IMG/VR virus record: IMGVR_UViG_3300044954_000034
Location: 1-22,270 of that record
DNA: 22,270 nt
Source: a virus
Reading direction: 5' to 3' (one strand)
Shown here: piece after piece, positions 6,706 through 12,628 of the stretch
Position numbering within the stretch: position 1 is the first letter of the stretch
Layout: each line of letters starts with the position of its first letter
Made by a program: the position numbers and the translations under genes
Notes under the pieces: model-generated
Seen by the model: only the letters and a program-made list of their open reading frames with translations
The model's database searches: none
Told to the model about the DNA's origin: nothing

Positions 6706-7360
6706 CAACGAAACTGACGTAGAACTGCGGGCCGACGGTGACGCCAAGGAAATCACCGGCACGGCAGCCGTGTTCTACGACGGCACACGGGACACGGAGT
6801 TCGTCCTGGACCCAGGCGGCCAGGGCCGGCGCAAGGTAGTCGAGCGGATTCTGCCCGGCGCCTTCGACAAGGTAATGCGTGAGCGCAACATTAGCGACAC
6901 CCGCGCCCTGTTCAATCACAACAGCGACCACCTGCTGGGACGCCGCAGCAGCGGCACGCTCAAGCTCGAGGTAACGGGGCGTGGACTGGGGTATGCGATT
7001 CCATTCGACGCCGCGGACCCCGACCATCAGCGGGTAGCGGCCAAGATGCAGCGGGGCGACCTGCGAGGCAGCAGCTTTGCATTTTCACTAGGGGAGAAAG
7101 ACATGGAGCGGAAGATCGAGGGTGACGTTGGCGTCGTGGAAATCCGCAGCGTCGATAAGCTGTACGACGTTGGCCCCGTGACGTTCCCGGCCTACGGCGG
7201 GACGGACGCCGGGATGCGTGGCCACAACCCTGAAGCGGAGCTAAAGCAGTTCCGCAAGTGGGAAGCCGAGCAGGAGGAAGCCGCAGCGGCAGCGGCTAAG
7301 GAAGCGATAGCCGCCGAGAACGCAACCTGGGAGGCCCGCGCTAAACTGGCGGGGATGTAA
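6683..7360 (+). CDS. Prohead protease (HK97 gp4, U35-type)
   Basis: The 225-residue serine protease trims the delta domain of the major capsid protein and itself during head maturation. A strong GGGAGG site sits just before ATG 6683 inside the portal gene. Recognisable parts are the strand ITGTAAVFYDG near 24-34, ERILPGAFDK (54-63), catalytic-histidine motif ALFNHNSDHLLG (75-86), and the serine motif DLRGSSFAF (126-134), followed by DVGPVTFPAY. The C-terminal third (from about 185) is a Glu/Ala-rich helix that is probably the cleavable tail or a scaffold-like segment. The stop TAA shares its last base with the next start (TAATG), coupling it directly to the NeuB-like gene. Confidence 0.95.
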   Translation: MSDVLRRSNETDVELRADGDAKEITGTAAVFYDGTRDTEFVLDPGGQGRRKVVERILPGAFDKVMRERNISDTRALFNHNSDHLLGRRSSGTLKLEVTGRGLGYAIPFDAADPDHQRVAAKMQRGDLRGSSFAFSLGEKDMERKIEGDVGVVEIRSVDKLYDVGPVTFPAYGGTDAGMRGHNPEAELKQFRKWEAEQEEAAAAAAKEAIAAENATWEARAKLAGM

Positions 7361-8013
7361 TGCGAGCACCGAAGGAAGCACTATGGGGGCCTGGCCAGCC
7401 TCCGTTTATCATCGCCGAAGTTGGACTGACGCACGAAGGTTCGCTGGGCAATGCGTTGGCGTTTATCGACGCCTGTGCGGATGCCGGGGCGAATGCGGTT
7501 AAGTTCCAGTGCCACGACGGCGATGAGAATGTCGAGTTCCGCGCCAACTTCGACTGGCCGCAGGACGACTGCCGCCAGGCGTATTGGGAGCGAACACGAT
7601 TCGCCCTGACGGAGTGGCAGGACATCTACGCCCATGCGCAGTTGCGGCGCATCGCTCTAGGCATCACGCCGTTCTCGCTGGCCGCTCTGTGGCTCGTGCA
7701 TGAGATGTGCGACTTCCTGAAAATCGCCCGCCAGCATTGCCGCAAACTGATTCACGATAAAGCCAATCTCACAAATAGGCGGGTTCTGTTTACCGGCCCT
7801 CACGGCGGCCTCGGCCTGAACGAATACGACCCCGCCCGGCACATCGGCATCAGCGACCATTCCGCCAGCATCGCCCCGGCGGTGGACGCCTTCAAGCGTG
7901 GGGCAGAAGTGGCGGAACTGCACGTCTGCTTTGACCGTCGGCAATTCGGCCCTGATGTCAGCATGTCGGTGACGATTGACGAACTGGCCGAACTGGTGAG
8001 GGCTGTTAAATGA
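7360..8013 (+). CDS. NeuB-like nonulosonic (sialic) acid synthase, compact
   Basis: NeuB enzymes condense phosphoenolpyruvate with ManNAc or a related sugar to form a nonulosonic acid. This 217-residue protein begins with the family's N-terminal barrel strand PFIIAEVGLTHEGSLGNA (15-32; E20, H25) and GANAVKFQ (43-50; K48). It continues with GITPFSLAALWLVHE (101-115), DFLKIA (118-123; K121), GISDHSAS (163-170; S165, H167) and ELHVCFDRR (186-194; H188). H167 and H188 match the two metal-binding histidines of NeuB. Usual NeuB is about 340-350 residues: here about 40 residues are missing between the KIA and SDH motifs, including the Asn-Tyr-Pro region, and the C-terminal SAF/antifreeze-like domain is absent. 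The frame is unbroken and coupled at both ends, so this looks like a compact form rather than a pseudogene, but activity is uncertain. Confidence 0.85.
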   Translation: MRAPKEALWGPGQPPFIIAEVGLTHEGSLGNALAFIDACADAGANAVKFQCHDGDENVEFRANFDWPQDDCRQAYWERTRFALTEWQDIYAHAQLRRIALGITPFSLAALWLVHEMCDFLKIARQHCRKLIHDKANLTNRRVLFTGPHGGLGLNEYDPARHIGISDHSASIAPAVDAFKRGAEVAELHVCFDRRQFGPDVSMSVTIDELAELVRAVK

Positions 8014-8249
8014 AGGGACCAATCACAGGATGCGGCGAGTTCGGTATAGCTTTGGCTAAAGCCTGCGGACTTGGCGAGCGGATGGTGAAGAGAATCGTAA
8101 TTGATTGCGCGTGCGATGAACTTGTAACAGTTACGGCTACACTTATCGACTTCAATGGCGATGAGATAATTGAAACCATCCAGAAGTATGATGTCCACCA
8201 ACGCCCGACGCCGGACCCGAAACAACACGCCGAGCCACAGCAGATATGA
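8010..8249 (+). CDS. Small hypothetical phage protein in the sugar cassette
   Basis: This 79-residue protein overlaps the NeuB-like gene (ATGA at 8010) and the NeuC-like gene (ATGA at 8246), so it is locked into the cassette. It starts with a short segment (MKGPITGCGEFGIALAKACGLG), continues with two beta strands (RIVIDCACDELVTVTATLIDF) and an acidic turn, and ends in a Pro/Gln/His-rich tail. The central 'RIVIDxxxDxLVTVTxTL' strand pair is common in small uncharacterised phage proteins. Composition is slightly more A/T-rich than its neighbours. It may be an ordinary phage gene into which sugar genes were inserted on either side; no catalytic motif is seen. Confidence 0.75.
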   Translation: MKGPITGCGEFGIALAKACGLGERMVKRIVIDCACDELVTVTATLIDFNGDEIIETIQKYDVHQRPTPDPKQHAEPQQI

Positions 8250-9358
8250 TAGCCTTCATCCTCTGCGACCGTGCGAACTATGGCCGGCTGAAGCCCGTCA
8301 TGCGTGCGTGCGTGGACGCCGGCCTGGACGTCTCGGCCATCTGCGGCGGCTCGATGGTGCTGCCACGGTTCGAGCGACCGGCTGACATGGTGCGTGCCGA
8401 TGGGTTCCACGTGTCGCAGGAAGTCTATTGCGAGATTGAGGGGGGCAACCGGCTGACGATGGCTAAGAGCGTCGGCGAATCGACCAAGGCTTTCGCCCAG
8501 GCGATTGGCAGCCCGCAACTGGCCGTCATCATCGGGGACCGCTACGAGGCACTGGGAGCGGCGACGGCGTGCCACTATGTCGGCGTACCACTGCTGCACC
8601 TGCAAGGGGGCGAGATATCCGGCACGCTGGACAACGGGGCACGCAATGCGATAACGGCGTTGGCAACGTGGCACTGGCCGGCGACCAGCAAAGCGGCTAC
8701 GCGAGTGGCGGAGCAAATCGGCTCCCGCGTCGTGTGGCCGCACCCCATTAAGGGCAACATCTCCTGCTACCAGTGGGAGTGGCGCGGCAAGGAGTCGCAC
8801 ATCCTCGGCATCGGCTGCCCATCGACGGACCTGCTGGCGGGACTCGATAACACGCCGGGCGATTACATCCTGGCCTGTTATCACCCCGACACGCATCACC
8901 CCGAAACGGCATCGGCAGAAGTGGCGGAAATGCTCGCCGCCCTGGAGGGGCAACGCACCGTGTTTATGTGGCCAAACATCGACGCCGGCTCGCACGGCAT
9001 CGGCATGGCGTTGCACCGGCACCGCAAGGCACCGTGGCTGCGGCGAGTGGTGAATATGTCGCCGGAGCAATACTATCGCACGATGGCCCAGGCCAAGTGC
9101 CTTGTCGGCAATAGCAGCAGCTTTGTACGGGACTCGGCCATTCTCGGCGTGCCTGCGGTCATCGTCGGCACACGGCAGGACGGGCGGGAGCGTGGGAGCA
9201 ACGTGGCGAGCGTGCCGGCGGATGCCAGGCTGATAGCCGAGTCGATTAAGCTGCAACCGGCCCGCTACGAGGCGTGCCATCTATTCGGCGATGGTCAGGT
9301 TTCGGGGCGGATTGCTGCGGCTATTAAGGCACTAGCACAAAGGGAGAAAGCGGCATGA
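8246..9358 (+). CDS. NeuC-like UDP-sugar 2-epimerase (hydrolysing)
   Basis: NeuC hydrolyses and epimerises UDP-GlcNAc to ManNAc, giving the substrate for NeuB. The 370-residue length is normal for the family. Motifs in order: N-terminal DRANYGRLKPV (8-18, matching the RADYG loop), VIIGDRYEALGAA (94-106), HLQGGEISG (118-126, where NeuC usually has HIHGGE), MWPNIDAGSHGI (241-252), VGNSSSFVRDS (287-297), GVPAVIVGTRQDGRER (301-316) and the closing LFGDGQVSGRI (347-356). These define the UDP-binding GT-B-like fold. The His-to-Gln change in HxGGE is notable. The gene is coupled by ATGA at both ends. The related legionaminic-acid enzymes act on a diacetamido sugar, so the exact UDP-sugar cannot be fixed from the sequence. 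Confidence 0.93.
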   Translation: MIAFILCDRANYGRLKPVMRACVDAGLDVSAICGGSMVLPRFERPADMVRADGFHVSQEVYCEIEGGNRLTMAKSVGESTKAFAQAIGSPQLAVIIGDRYEALGAATACHYVGVPLLHLQGGEISGTLDNGARNAITALATWHWPATSKAATRVAEQIGSRVVWPHPIKGNISCYQWEWRGKESHILGIGCPSTDLLAGLDNTPGDYILACYHPDTHHPETASAEVAEMLAALEGQRTVFMWPNIDAGSHGIGMALHRHRKAPWLRRVVNMSPEQYYRTMAQAKCLVGNSSSFVRDSAILGVPAVIVGTRQDGRERGSNVASVPADARLIAESIKLQPARYEACHLFGDGQVSGRIAAAIKALAQREKAA

Positions 9359-9570
9359 GCGACAAGAAGCGTGGCTGTGTTCTGAAGGTCAAGTTCACGC
9401 CTGCCGAAATGGACAAATTGTGGCACGCTCGCCGAGGCTGCAGGTCGGTCCAGGACTGGGCGCGAGATGTGCTAGTGACAGCTGCCGTGAAATCCAGAGA
9501 GTTCAAGCCCGGCGACCCCCGCAACCGCGAACAGAAATGCGAACCCTCGGCATCGTCCCCTGCCACCTAG
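9355..9570 (+). CDS. Small ribbon-helix-helix-like protein between NeuC-like and NeuA-like genes
   Basis: The 71-residue product starts at an ATGA overlap with the NeuC-like gene and overlaps the start of the NeuA-like gene by 34 bases in another frame. Residues 8-43 fit a ribbon-helix-helix pattern: a short strand CVLKVKFT, a helix PAEMDKLWHARR, a turn GCRS, and a second helix VQDWARDVLVTAA. This resembles small DNA-binding proteins of the CopG/Arc/MobC type. The C-terminal 25 residues are polar and Pro-rich. It may be a DNA-binding regulator carried by the cassette, or a phage small gene. RHH assignment is by pattern only. Confidence 0.65.
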   Translation: MSDKKRGCVLKVKFTPAEMDKLWHARRGCRSVQDWARDVLVTAAVKSREFKPGDPRNREQKCEPSASSPAT

Positions 9571-10130
9571 CCAGCCGCCGCCTACACCGCAAGAACCTGC
9601 TGACATGCGGCGGGCGAACCCTGCTGGAATGGACCGCGGCCCAGTGCCAGCAGTCCCGGCGGCTGTCGGCCTGGGTTGTCAGCACGCCCGATCAGGAGGT
9701 GGTGGACGCCTGCACACTGAACGGCTGGCCAGTTTCGACGCTGGCGGCCAAACTCCACGGCAAGGCCTCACTAGGCCATATCTGCCAAACGGAGCTACAG
9801 GGCCATCCTGAGCGGTTTGAGGCGGTCATGTGCCTCCAGCCGACCAGCCCGCTACGGCTGCCTGGGGACATCGACCGGGCCATCAGCACCCTGGAAACCA
9901 CCCCAAATTGCCAAGCGGTAGTGGGCAGGCGTTCAGATAAACATGCATCCACCTGTGGCACGGTGTTCCTGGTTCGGGCCGAGTTGTTGCCCAGCCTGCC
10001 GCTGGAGGGGCCTGGGGTGGTGCCCATCTACATCCCGCCGGAGCGTGCCGTGGACGTGGACACGGCGTATGACCTCTGGCTGGCCGATAAGCTGCTAACC
10101 CTGCCAGATAGCCCGGTTCGCTTGTCCTAA
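9537..10130 (+). CDS. NeuA-like CMP-nonulosonate cytidylyltransferase
   Basis: NeuA activates a nonulosonic acid with CTP to give the CMP-sugar donor. The start ATG 9537 is chosen because homology begins at once with LGIVPCHLASRRLHRKN (4-20); upstream in-frame sequence is a shadow of the RHH gene. Other family motifs are WVVSTPDQEVVDAC (46-59), the signature LQPTSPLRLPGDIDRAI (100-116), and the metal-binding AVDVDTAYDL (171-180; D173, D175). At 197 residues it is slightly short of the usual 220-230. The nucleotide loop, normally PARxGSK, is PCHLASRR, losing the conserved Arg but keeping a KdsB-like 'LASxR' and the RKN. KdsB (CMP-Kdo synthetase) is the main alternative, but LQPTSPLR and the neighbouring NeuB/NeuC-like genes favour NeuA. 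Confidence 0.87.
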   Translation: MRTLGIVPCHLASRRLHRKNLLTCGGRTLLEWTAAQCQQSRRLSAWVVSTPDQEVVDACTLNGWPVSTLAAKLHGKASLGHICQTELQGHPERFEAVMCLQPTSPLRLPGDIDRAISTLETTPNCQAVVGRRSDKHASTCGTVFLVRAELLPSLPLEGPGVVPIYIPPERAVDVDTAYDLWLADKLLTLPDSPVRLS

Positions 10131-10193: not shown

Positions 10194-10221
10194 TTGACAA
10201 CAATAGCCGATACGCTACAAT
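10194..10221 (+). promoter_or_regulatory. Sigma-70-type promoter for the small-gene block
   Basis: TTGACA (10194-10199) and TACAAT (10216-10221) are separated by 16 bp. The 40 bases upstream are A/T-rich, like an UP element. The predicted transcription start (about 7 nt past the -10 box) falls on or next to the ATG at 10228, which is in frame with the gene at 10282. Confidence 0.8.
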
Positions 10222-10281
10222 AGGGGCATGACACACGAGAACACCACCAATGGTTCCTTTCCTCTTTCCAAGGAGAATGCG

Positions 10282-10470
10282 ATGTACGCTGTCGCCTCTC
10301 GGCTCGTGGGTTTCAAGTCCTCTTGGCTTCGCGTCCGCATTTTGCGGACGGAAGGTTCCTACGTCTGGTGCATCACGGCTGACCTCCGTGATGCCGGGAC
10401 CAAGTTGGTCCTGGACGCCTCGCAGGTTGTCACGGAGGACGAGTTGTCCCGCCAGTATCTGGCGGGTTAG
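10282..10470 (+). CDS. Small hypothetical protein behind its own promoter
   Basis: The favoured start is ATG 10282 because AAGGAG lies at 10270-10275, giving 62 residues (MYAVASRLVGFKSSW...). An in-frame ATG at 10228 would give 80 residues; it coincides with the predicted transcript start and would make a leaderless message, so both forms are possible. The protein is mostly beta-prone with RVRILRTEGSYVWCITADL in the middle and a polar C-terminal DELSRQYLAG. No known family is recognised. A GC hairpin (10448-10466) overlaps the last codons and a second one (10482-10505) follows the stop. It is the first gene of a block that has its own promoter and no homology to structural genes, as expected for a phage moron. 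Confidence 0.65.
   Translation: MYAVASRLVGFKSSWLRVRILRTEGSYVWCITADLRDAGTKLVLDASQVVTEDELSRQYLAG
10448..10466 (+). repeat. Hairpin at the end of the 62-aa gene
   Basis: CCCGCCAG (10448-10455) and CTGGCGGG (10459-10466) form a perfect 8-bp stem with a 3-nt loop TAT. It lies within the last codons, is followed by TTAG rather than a T tract, and so could slow RNA decay or translation rather than stop transcription. Confidence 0.6.
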
Positions 10471-10481
10471 AAGTTGAGCGA

Positions 10482-10505
10482 CCCTCCGGCAATTTCGCCG
10501 GAGGG
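10482..10505 (+). terminator. Second strong hairpin, terminator-like without a T tract
   Basis: CCCTCCGGC (10482-10490) pairs perfectly with GCCGGAGGG (10497-10505) around the loop AATTTC. The next bases are GATATCGGG, so there is no U tract. It may partly terminate, protect the RNA, or separate the highly expressed first gene from the next gene at 10542. Confidence 0.45.
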
Positions 10506-10541
10506 GATATCGGGCAAGCTACTAACACGAAAGGGAGAGCC

Positions 10542-10796
10542 ATGACGACGAAACAACAAGTTCTGCTAAAGGCCGGCGAACTGGGAGCAACGGTGCGAGA
10601 AGAGCGTACCGACATTTACGAAGTGCTGATTGACGCACCTGACGGCAAGCACTGGTTTGACGGTGGCTGCTCGCAGCTAGTGTGGAGCCAATGGGACGAC
10701 GAAAGCAAGCAAAACGCTTGGCCTGATCTGCTTGAACGTATGGAGTGGGGCTTGGAGTCGTGCGATGAGTGCTGCGGGCACCTGGAGCAGAATTAG
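10542..10796 (+). CDS. Small acidic hypothetical protein
   Basis: The 84-residue protein has a good ribosome binding site (AAGGGAGAG) just before ATG 10542. It is acidic and tryptophan-rich, with an N-terminal helix TTKQQVLLKAGELGA, a beta hairpin DIYEVLIDAPDGKHWFDGG, a second helix with DLLERMEWGLESC and a cysteine cluster CDECC near the C-terminus. The 'APDGKHWFDGG' segment suggests a compact alpha-beta fold. I do not recognise the family. Its neighbours are two other small genes in the same promoter-driven block. Confidence 0.7.
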   Translation: MTTKQQVLLKAGELGATVREERTDIYEVLIDAPDGKHWFDGGCSQLVWSQWDDESKQNAWPDLLERMEWGLESCDECCGHLEQN

Positions 10797-10798
10797 CC

Positions 10799-10987
10799 AT
10801 GAAAACCCACACCACCACCGCCGCCGCCCAGTCGCTCGGCCTGCACGTCGGCACGGTTCGCCGGCTGTGCAAGGCCCACGGAATCGGGACGCTGCTAAAC
10901 GCCACCACACGGGTGCTGTCCGACAAGGACTTCGCCAAGCTCAAGGGACTGGCCCGCAAGCCGGGCAATCCTAACTGGCAGGCTTGA
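10799..10987 (+). CDS. Small MerR/excisionase-like helix-turn-helix protein
   Basis: The 62-residue protein begins at ATG 10799, two bases after the previous stop. Residues 8-30 read AAAQSLGLHVGTVRRLCKAHGIG, a clear helix-turn-helix: first helix AAAQSLGL, turn HV, recognition helix TVRRLCKAHGI. Then comes a beta wing LLNATTRVLSDKDFAKL, as in MerR-type and excisionase-type winged helices. The remainder is a basic tail. It likely binds DNA. The -35 box of the promoter before the capsid gene (TTGACG 10984-10989) overlaps its stop codon, so self-regulation or control of that promoter is attractive but unproven. Confidence 0.75.
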   Translation: MKTHTTTAAAQSLGLHVGTVRRLCKAHGIGTLLNATTRVLSDKDFAKLKGLARKPGNPNWQA

Positions 10988-11011
10988 CGCCGCCGGCAGG
11001 CTGGGTATAGT
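10984..11011 (+). promoter_or_regulatory. Sigma-70-type promoter before the capsid leader
   Basis: TTGACG (10984-10989) and TATAGT (11006-11011) have a 16-bp spacer. The -35 box overlaps the stop of the helix-turn-helix gene. The predicted start near 11018 gives a leader of about 147 nt before the capsid ATG. Confidence 0.75.
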
Positions 11012-11017
11012 AGAAGT

Positions 11018-11134
11018 AGAAATCGACCTCTCCAGGTCGGCAGACGTGCAGTAAATCCGCACGGGTCCGAACAGTGAGAGCAGTCGGTGAATCGTCATTT
11101 CACCACTGCCCACGACCCGCAGCGGATTTTTGTT
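11018..11134 (+). ncRNA. Structured leader RNA or short phage RNA upstream of the capsid gene
   Basis: Start and end are estimated from the promoter and the T tract. Several helices are visible. Hairpin I is CGACCT (11024-11029) with AGGTCG (11034-11039), loop CTCC. An outer long-range stem is AAATCCGC (11053-11060) with GCGGATTT (11122-11129). Next inward is CGGGTC (11062-11067) with GACCCG (11114-11119). Inside is GCAGT-c-GGTGAA (11080-11091) with TTCACCACTGC (11099-11109), a single-base bulge and 7-nt loop. The T tract TTTTTGTT (11127-11134) follows the outer stem. Alternative local pairing CGTGC/GCACG (11045-11049, 11059-11063) would break the outer stem, as in an attenuator. I recognise no known riboswitch core. 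It could end as a short RNA or regulate read-through into the capsid gene. Confidence 0.55.
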
Positions 11135-11164
11135 GCGCGTGGGCGTTCCATAAGGAACCCCTAA

Positions 11165-12628
11165 ATGTCCGATCTAGCCAAAGAAGCCAAACGGCTGCGG
11201 GAAGACCGCGCCCGTGCGGCCAAGCAACTGCACGAGCTGGTCATTAACGCTCAAAAGGAAGAGCGTAGCCTGACCGGCGAAGAGCAGGTGAAGTTCAACA
11301 AGATCGAGGCCGACTGTAGCGACCTCGAAAAGCGGTTCAGCGATATCGAAAAGGTTATCGCCCTGACCGGCAGCGACCCTGCCGAGGAGCAGCGCGAAAG
11401 CCGCGTCATCAGCAACCGCCAAGCCGAGGCCAAGGGACTGCCGACTGCCGAAATGCAGGAGCGTGCGTTCCAGGGCTGGTGCTTGGCGAGCAAGCCGGAG
11501 CTTATCACCCCGGCCCACGAGGAAGCGGCCCGCGCGTGCAACGTGGACCTGCGTTCCAAGTCGTGGACGTTCTGGCTGCCCCAGTACGTCGGCGACAGCC
11601 CCAAGAGCGTTGCCGAGTTCCGGAAAATGCGGGCCGAGGGACGCATCCGGGTGCCCAAGGAATACACCGTCCGCGGCGACGGCGACCTTGTCATCACCCG
11701 CGCCACGACTGCCCAAACCGTGACGACCACGGGCGGCGGCCACACCGTTCAGAACGAAGGCATGGCTGCCATCGAGGAAGCCCTGCTGGCGATGGGAACG
11801 ATGCGGCAAGTCGGCAAGGTGATTCGCACCGCAACGGGTGCTACGTGGCCTGTGCCGACTTCGGCTGAGAACCAATCGGGCGTATTGCTCGGCATTAACA
11901 CTGCCGTGGATACCCTGAATATGACTTTCGGCCAGCAGACGCTGGGGGCCAAGAAGTACGCCTCCGCTGTGCAGATCCCCATCGAGCTGATGCAGGACAC
12001 GACGCTGAACATGGCCAACTATGTCGGCGGCGTGCTGGGCAATCGCCTGGCCCGCATCAGCGAAACGCACTTCGCCACTGGGGCAGCCTCGCTTGGGCAG
12101 CCCGAAGGCGTCATCACCACCGGCAGTTCCGGCGGTGCAAGTGCGGGGGCCACGCAGAGCAGCGAGGCCAACATCCAGTGGACCGACATCGTGAACCTGA
12201 TTCACTACGTCGATCCGGCCCTGCGTCCCGGTTCGCGGTTCATGTTCCACGACACCATCCTGAAGAACCTGCGGGGCCTGGTGGATACCACCGGGCGTCC
12301 GCTGTGGCAGCCGTCGATTACGGCGGGCATGGCGGATGGAACGCCAGACATGATCGCAGGGTACCCCTACAGTGTGAACAATTCTTTCCCGTCGTACAGC
12401 GGATCGACTGCTGCCGCCGCGTTGGCCAAGCTGTTCTGCTACGGACGTTTGGACAAGTTTTGGATTCGTGACGTCATGGGCATCACGGTCATGCGTGCCG
12501 ATGAGCGGCTGATCGAGTATGCCCAGGTTGGTTTCTATGCGTTTGCACGCATGGACGGCCAGTTCATTTCCGGCGTTGCCGGAACGACCGACAGCGACTT
12601 GCGGCTCATCACCGCGGTGGCGTCGTAA
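11165..12628 (+). CDS. Major capsid protein (HK97 fold)
   Basis: This 487-residue protein is the main shell subunit. The ATG at 11165 is preceded by AAGGA. Residues 1 to about 75 are charged and heptad-like (AKEAKRLREDRARAAKQLHE..., then EEQVKFNKIEADCSDLEKRF), matching the delta/scaffold domain that the upstream protease removes. From about residue 180 the HK97 pattern follows: a Thr/Gly-rich segment before HTVQNEG, AIEEALLAMGTMRQVGKVI, VPTSAEN, KKYASAVQIPIELMQD, GNRLARISETHFATG (the A-domain helix), and the C-terminal GRLDKFWIRDVMGITVMRADERLIEYAQVGFYAFARMDGQ segments (quoted here in parts of the family pattern). It has its own promoter and leader RNA, and a strong hairpin follows, consistent with separate high expression. 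Confidence 0.96.
   Translation: MSDLAKEAKRLREDRARAAKQLHELVINAQKEERSLTGEEQVKFNKIEADCSDLEKRFSDIEKVIALTGSDPAEEQRESRVISNRQAEAKGLPTAEMQERAFQGWCLASKPELITPAHEEAARACNVDLRSKSWTFWLPQYVGDSPKSVAEFRKMRAEGRIRVPKEYTVRGDGDLVITRATTAQTVTTTGGGHTVQNEGMAAIEEALLAMGTMRQVGKVIRTATGATWPVPTSAENQSGVLLGINTAVDTLNMTFGQQTLGAKKYASAVQIPIELMQDTTLNMANYVGGVLGNRLARISETHFATGAASLGQPEGVITTGSSGGASAGATQSSEANIQWTDIVNLIHYVDPALRPGSRFMFHDTILKNLRGLVDTTGRPLWQPSITAGMADGTPDMIAGYPYSVNNSFPSYSGSTAAAALAKLFCYGRLDKFWIRDVMGITVMRADERLIEYAQVGFYAFARMDGQFISGVAGTTDSDLRLITAVAS

Follow-up and report, generated by a model that had tools for sequence, protein, structure and literature searches.

The capsid protein is usually the most abundant product of a phage, and to our knowledge control of its level is poorly understood in phages outside the classical models. 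Several described systems bear a partial likeness to the capsid leader analysed here. The lambda PR'-tR' late leader (6S RNA) is controlled by Q antitermination, and it too combines a phage promoter, a short leader and a terminator-like hairpin ahead of late structural genes. Unlike it, the present leader adjoins the capsid gene, carries a hairpin at the start codon, and has a covarying helix between two of its hairpins, here called P2 and P3. In T4, gp32 represses translation of its own mRNA; the 5' leader of gene 32, also a highly expressed phage gene, can likewise form a pseudoknot, with the structure near the ribosome-binding site. The present leader differs from it in having its own promoter and a U-tract hairpin, and the two are unrelated in sequence and architecture.

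Other likenesses are looser. The RNase III sites of T7 late mRNAs also place a long hairpin upstream of the capsid message, whereas the hairpin described here is followed in many relatives by a U-tract and also pairs with a second hairpin downstream of it. The put antiterminator RNA of HK022, which modifies RNA polymerase on early transcripts, similarly presents structured RNA directly after a phage promoter; here, in contrast, P2 is itself terminator-like and lies upstream of a late gene. Finally, the Mu-gpT-DE RNA motif is a candidate from comparative genomics whose conserved structure is tied to a phage head-protein gene, as in our case. What sets our leader apart from it is that Rfam scans of the window and seven relatives were empty, rather than a comparison of structures.

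The window is the whole stretch analysed, an IMG/VR virus record of 22,270 bases that codes for a terminase, a portal, a prohead protease, a cassette of sugar genes and a Phage_capsid-type major head protein. The computations show how the leader folds and that it recurs ahead of capsid genes; they also show that P2 covaries, that there is long-range complementarity and that promoters are enriched. Because about a hundred related phages have the same arrangement with compensating base changes, the leader looks, from sequence comparison, like an undescribed RNA control element for production of the phage shell. A covarying leader in so many uncultured phages is a concrete, testable control element, and a capsid-leader RNA would add a family absent from Rfam. 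Literature searches found no prior description of such an RNA.

Structure of the leader

The major capsid gene (Phage_capsid, PF05065) occupies 11165..12628 on the plus strand, its ATG following directly on the leader. An initial annotation had seen an elaborate structured RNA at this place, and folding bears this out. The 153 bases ahead of the gene (11012-11164) reach a minimum free energy of -70.9 kcal/mol (z -6.3), against -43.7 ± 4.3 kcal/mol for dinucleotide shuffles, none of which (0 of 200) reaches the native value. In a sliding scan of the whole record, the lowest z among 370 plus-strand windows (-6.7) belongs to the 120-nt window at 11041. Second in structure on the plus strand is 10441-10560 (z -4.7), which holds a hairpin CCCTCCGGC/GCCGGAGGG with no T run.

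The computed fold contains every helix that the annotation had listed, from P1 through the two outer helices and inner hairpin of P2 to the T run. P1 is a 5' hairpin (CGACCT/AGGTCG) at 11023..11040 on the plus strand. P2, at 11053..11129 on the same strand, is a long, bulged, terminator-like hairpin of -38.3 kcal/mol whose homologous position covaries in relatives. Its outer helices pair AAATCCGC (11053-11060) with GCGGATTT (11122-11129) and CGGGTC (11062-11067) with GACCCG (11114-11119); within 11074-11113 sits a bulged inner hairpin, with 11 bp round a loop at 11092-11098 plus a GTG/CAC pairing. The plus-strand U-tract TTTTTG (11127-11132, T run 11127-11131) gives P2 the terminator feature of a stable hairpin with a U-tract directly 3'. 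The stem is bulged and exceeds the usual terminator length, and a loop-limited scan did not list P2.

Three elements had escaped the annotation: an outer extension helix on the plus strand (11044-11051 x 11133-11140), a hairpin on the Shine-Dalgarno sequence, and a possible long-range helix. The second of these, P3 (GGGcGTTCC-ATAA-GGAACCCC, 11141..11161, plus strand), pairs the GGA of the plus-strand Shine-Dalgarno AAGGA (11152..11156), 8 nt upstream of the ATG, in the computed ensemble. The alternative stem that had been proposed at 11045-11063 does exist, with 5 bp and -5.5 kcal/mol when folded alone. It overlaps the 5' strand of the outer extension helix and is the weaker of the two: forcing it makes the window's fold 12 kcal/mol worse. 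Neither the window, at the gathering score or at E up to 10, nor any of the seven relatives matched a family in Rfam 15; the earlier judgement that no known riboswitch core is present thus stands, and we rejected a riboswitch core as a candidate.

A long, nearly continuous duplex such as P2 (-38 kcal/mol), a few tens of bases from a highly expressed gene, could alternatively be a predicted RNase III processing and mRNA-stabilising site, as in T7 late mRNAs, that would give the capsid message a protected 5' end. We regard this as unlikely, if conceivable: it leaves the U-tract, the nearby upstream promoter and the covarying P2-P3 helix unexplained.

That promoter, which the annotation had called strong, is the sigma70-type sequence TTGACG-16-TATAGT on the plus strand (10984..11011). 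One such match was found where 0.1 would be expected. With the promoter ending at 11011, the transcript is expected to start near 11018.

Recurrence and covariation among related phages

Several routes to relatives gave nothing. Direct capsid or terminase searches of IMG/VR found no close relative. Neither a nucleotide search of phage records with the leader sequence nor a scan of IMG/VR for the stem pattern gave a match, and R1, a covariance model built from just the window, detected no relative in 30 loci or in 392 planctomycete genomes. Relatives were obtained by alignment-based searches, first as planctomycete MAG loci and then, stepwise, as IMG/VR loci. L041 and L046, the closest early relatives, come from genomes of the planctomycete group searched, and at least two relatives are located in planctomycete genomes. 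No relative found has a capsid more than 39% identical to that of the window, which forms a long branch among the leader-bearing relatives.

The layout recurs. Among 111 distinct leaders of related capsid genes (window included), 92 carry P2, and the common order is promoter, long hairpin P2, often a U-tract, hairpin P3 and capsid start codon. L041 and L046 both have a TTGACA promoter with a -10 box ending 168-169 nt upstream of the capsid ATG. Downstream of it come a 5' hairpin and a long hairpin, then a T run and finally a hairpin covering the Shine-Dalgarno sequence. A counterpart of P1 is also seen in the closest leaders when these are compared by eye, with a different sequence. The long leader looks like a lineage trait, since in eight phage or plasmid records with related capsids and the same gene order the gap from protease to capsid is only 10-76 nt and could not hold it. 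The leader of the Planctopirus limnophila phage plasmid has no notable fold (z -1.1).

Some leaders have peculiarities of their own. L040 and L002, from Planctopirus/Planctomyces phage elements, have in common a different hairpin upstream of the capsid gene (CCYGYCAGTGC/GCACTGGCRGG), with one compensatory pair between them. In L042, positions 9440-9559 have the lowest z of the locus (-7.2), with the hairpin end GCGTTTTG directly before the capsid ATG.

Promoters and U-tracts are enriched in the leaders of relatives. The shared layout has a sigma70-type promoter 140-220 nt ahead of the capsid start; promoters with at least 10 of 12 matches are present in 18% of one leader set and 20% of another, compared with 0.2-0.3% of control stretches. 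U-tracts are found in 45% and 33% of these sets versus 2-3% of controls, and 42 of the 92 P2 hairpins are followed by a clear one. L057 is identical to the window at TTTTTGTTGCGC (window 11127-11138). The sequence TTTTTGTTG has six plus-strand copies in 419 kb of relatives' loci and lies at most 132 nt from the capsid start in four leaders. L231 and L232 have a perfect consensus promoter, TTGACA-16-TATAAT, about 140 nt upstream of the capsid start.

These promoters bear on the reading of P2 as a plain terminator, shielding the capsid gene from transcription that arrives from upstream, with a fold that has no regulatory role. U-tract hairpins are common as operon punctuation, and in the window a cassette with its own promoter does lie upstream. 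Yet with recurrent promoters upstream of P2, such a terminator would also stop the capsid's own transcript, and P3 and the long-range helix would have no explanation; we consider this reading quite unlikely.

The annotation had proposed a check for covariation in homologous upstream regions, and P2 passes it clearly. On 18 leaders aligned with MAFFT, which is blind to structure, RNAalifold recovers P2 with double-sided changes at 13 of 17 pairs. Fully 90% of cells are paired, none of 500 shuffles equals P2 on any measure, and the pairing collapses once the partners are slid. P2 cells contain 49 G.U and 8 A.C combinations, and those of the long-range helix 22 and 6. An excess of G.U over A.C, 49 against 8 in P2, implies that the coding-strand RNA is under selection. 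A DNA element, whether for packaging, recombination or as a protein-binding palindrome, is therefore hardly tenable: DNA proteins can bind to large inverted repeats, and such repeats can extrude, but no tool result favours this, G.U far exceeds A.C in the covarying pairs, and the covariance model R2 scores much higher on the coding strand. On these two grounds we rejected a DNA palindrome.

Covariance models place the element at capsid genes. Held-out leaders recovered by R2 include L122 and L041, and R3 recovers held-out L202, L071, L107, L073, L122 and L108, nearly always directly before the capsid start; strong matches to either model occur only at capsid starts. In 392 planctomycete genomes R2 gave one strong match, the L046 prophage. 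We take the weak R2 matches in these genomes as chance, because of 20 loci fetched only the L046 prophage lay near a capsid gene.

The position of the element also speaks against a stand-alone, trans-acting small RNA of about 115 nt ending at the U-tract, which the annotation had offered beside an attenuator. A promoter and a U-tract do frame a 115-nt unit in the window. However, conservation extends through the 3' part to the capsid start codon, that 3' part pairs back to P2, the element adjoins the capsid gene and is not found elsewhere, and a clear U-tract is missing from about half of the P2 hairpins. Conservation to the start codon and the capsid-adjacent position led us to reject the small RNA as first choice, and it is very unlikely. 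The other half of that proposal fares better: a structured, attenuator-type leader agrees with a layout that recurs before the capsid gene in most relatives and with the covariation of P2.

The window itself is a divergent case. R2, built without it, does not match it, and R3, also built without it, gives an unconvincing 8.5 bits (E 0.042 in a 401-base stretch). Promoter, P2, U-tract, P3 and capsid start do follow one another in the window in the shared order and spacing. Its layout and spacing, its promoter and U-tract, its P2-P3 complementarity and the kinship of its capsid all place it in the group, and we count it as a divergent member; since the relatives' models match it weakly, membership rests on layout, position and capsid kinship.

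Long-range pairing between P2 and P3

A second, unexpected helix joins the 3' strand of P2 to the P3 loop. In many leaders this loop contains CCGGCGA, which is complementary to a TCGCCGG on the 3' side of P2, and the paired variants change together: CUGGCGAC/GUCGCCAG in L097, CAGGCGA/UCGCCUG in L174 and L185, CGCACGA/UCGUGCG in L166 and L176, and CCCGUCGA/UCGGCGGG in L190. In 33 leaders picked once the pairing had been noticed, mean self-complementarity is 20.2 (shuffles 14.9 ± 0.5); in 42 unselected leaders from a second search it is 18.8 (shuffles 15.2 ± 0.5). Cross-leader permutations gave 0 of 20,000 in the 33-leader set and again in the 42-leader set, counts that are not strict probabilities because related sequences are non-independent. 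With 36 leaders, RNAalifold returns the long-range helix as consensus without prompting, with double changes at all 5 of its pairs, equalled by at most 2 of 500 shuffles. Covariation of the helix is weak in the motif-conserved 18-leader alignment taken alone.

In the window the plus-strand partners are GCCCACG (11108..11114), within the 3' strand of P2, and CGTGGGC (11138..11144), at the 5' flank of P3. Their complementarity scores 21 against 13.7 for shuffles (p 0.03 for the window alone), and the P2 3' strand fits its own P3 region better than that of any other leader in the set. Folding the window with this helix costs 12 kcal/mol relative to the minimum, pseudoknots being left unscored in that figure. 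The helix excludes the upper pairs of P2 and crosses its outer stem, and so would form a pseudoknot. As an alternative pairing, it appears from these comparisons better supported than the stem at 11045-11063.

Such a pseudoknot could be a putative autogenous operator, in which P2, P3 and the long-range helix are bound by the capsid, the scaffold or another phage protein that represses capsid translation. The covarying, pseudoknot-forming helix, the seat of P3 on the ribosome-binding site and the restriction of clear instances to capsid genes would all suit this idea, but the window's P3 loop lacks the GGCGA that is common in that of relatives. We hold it possible yet doubtful.

Possible action on capsid expression

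We consider that the region probably forms the 5' leader of the capsid mRNA and, as a cis-acting, attenuator-like RNA, sets the amount of capsid. Its own promoter would start the transcript about 150 nt ahead of the capsid start codon. P2 and the U-tract would then act as an attenuator-like, terminator-like hairpin limiting capsid mRNA; as an attenuator P2 may terminate transcription, and on this proposal some transcripts should end near 11131. In read-through mRNA the ribosome-binding site would be held in P3, which may repress and so limit capsid translation. The P3 side would pair with the 3' strand of P2, linking both hairpins, and the resulting helix might switch the leader between states. 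The P3 side is transcribed only once the polymerase has passed the U-tract; this helix alone therefore cannot prevent termination there and must act on read-through mRNA. We infer that a phage or host factor may act on the leader.

Two results weaken this simple picture. As a group, the leaders do not pair their Shine-Dalgarno sequences significantly more strongly than control genes do (p 0.088), which leaves Shine-Dalgarno occlusion unsupported as a general trait, and a clear U-tract is present at less than half of the P2 hairpins. A bolder reading of this attenuator-like leader, to which we give somewhat less than even credence, is an undescribed, widespread phage RNA switch in which a terminator-like hairpin and a ribosome-site hairpin share a strand, so that termination is coupled with translation, and perhaps with the binding of a virion protein, in setting capsid output.

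The region upstream of the leader has features of its own. The sugar genes (7360-10130) lie between prohead protease and capsid, an unusual position for cargo, and comprise a truncated NeuB-type synthase, a NeuC-type UDP-GlcNAc 2-epimerase and a KdsB/PseF-type cytidylyltransferase. A second strong promoter in the cargo region, TTGACA-16-TACAAT (10194-10221), precedes a small ORF at 10228. Another small ORF (10802-10987) shows a weak helix-turn-helix match of excisionase type (E 0.005, below the cut-off) and has a stop codon that overlaps the capsid promoter.
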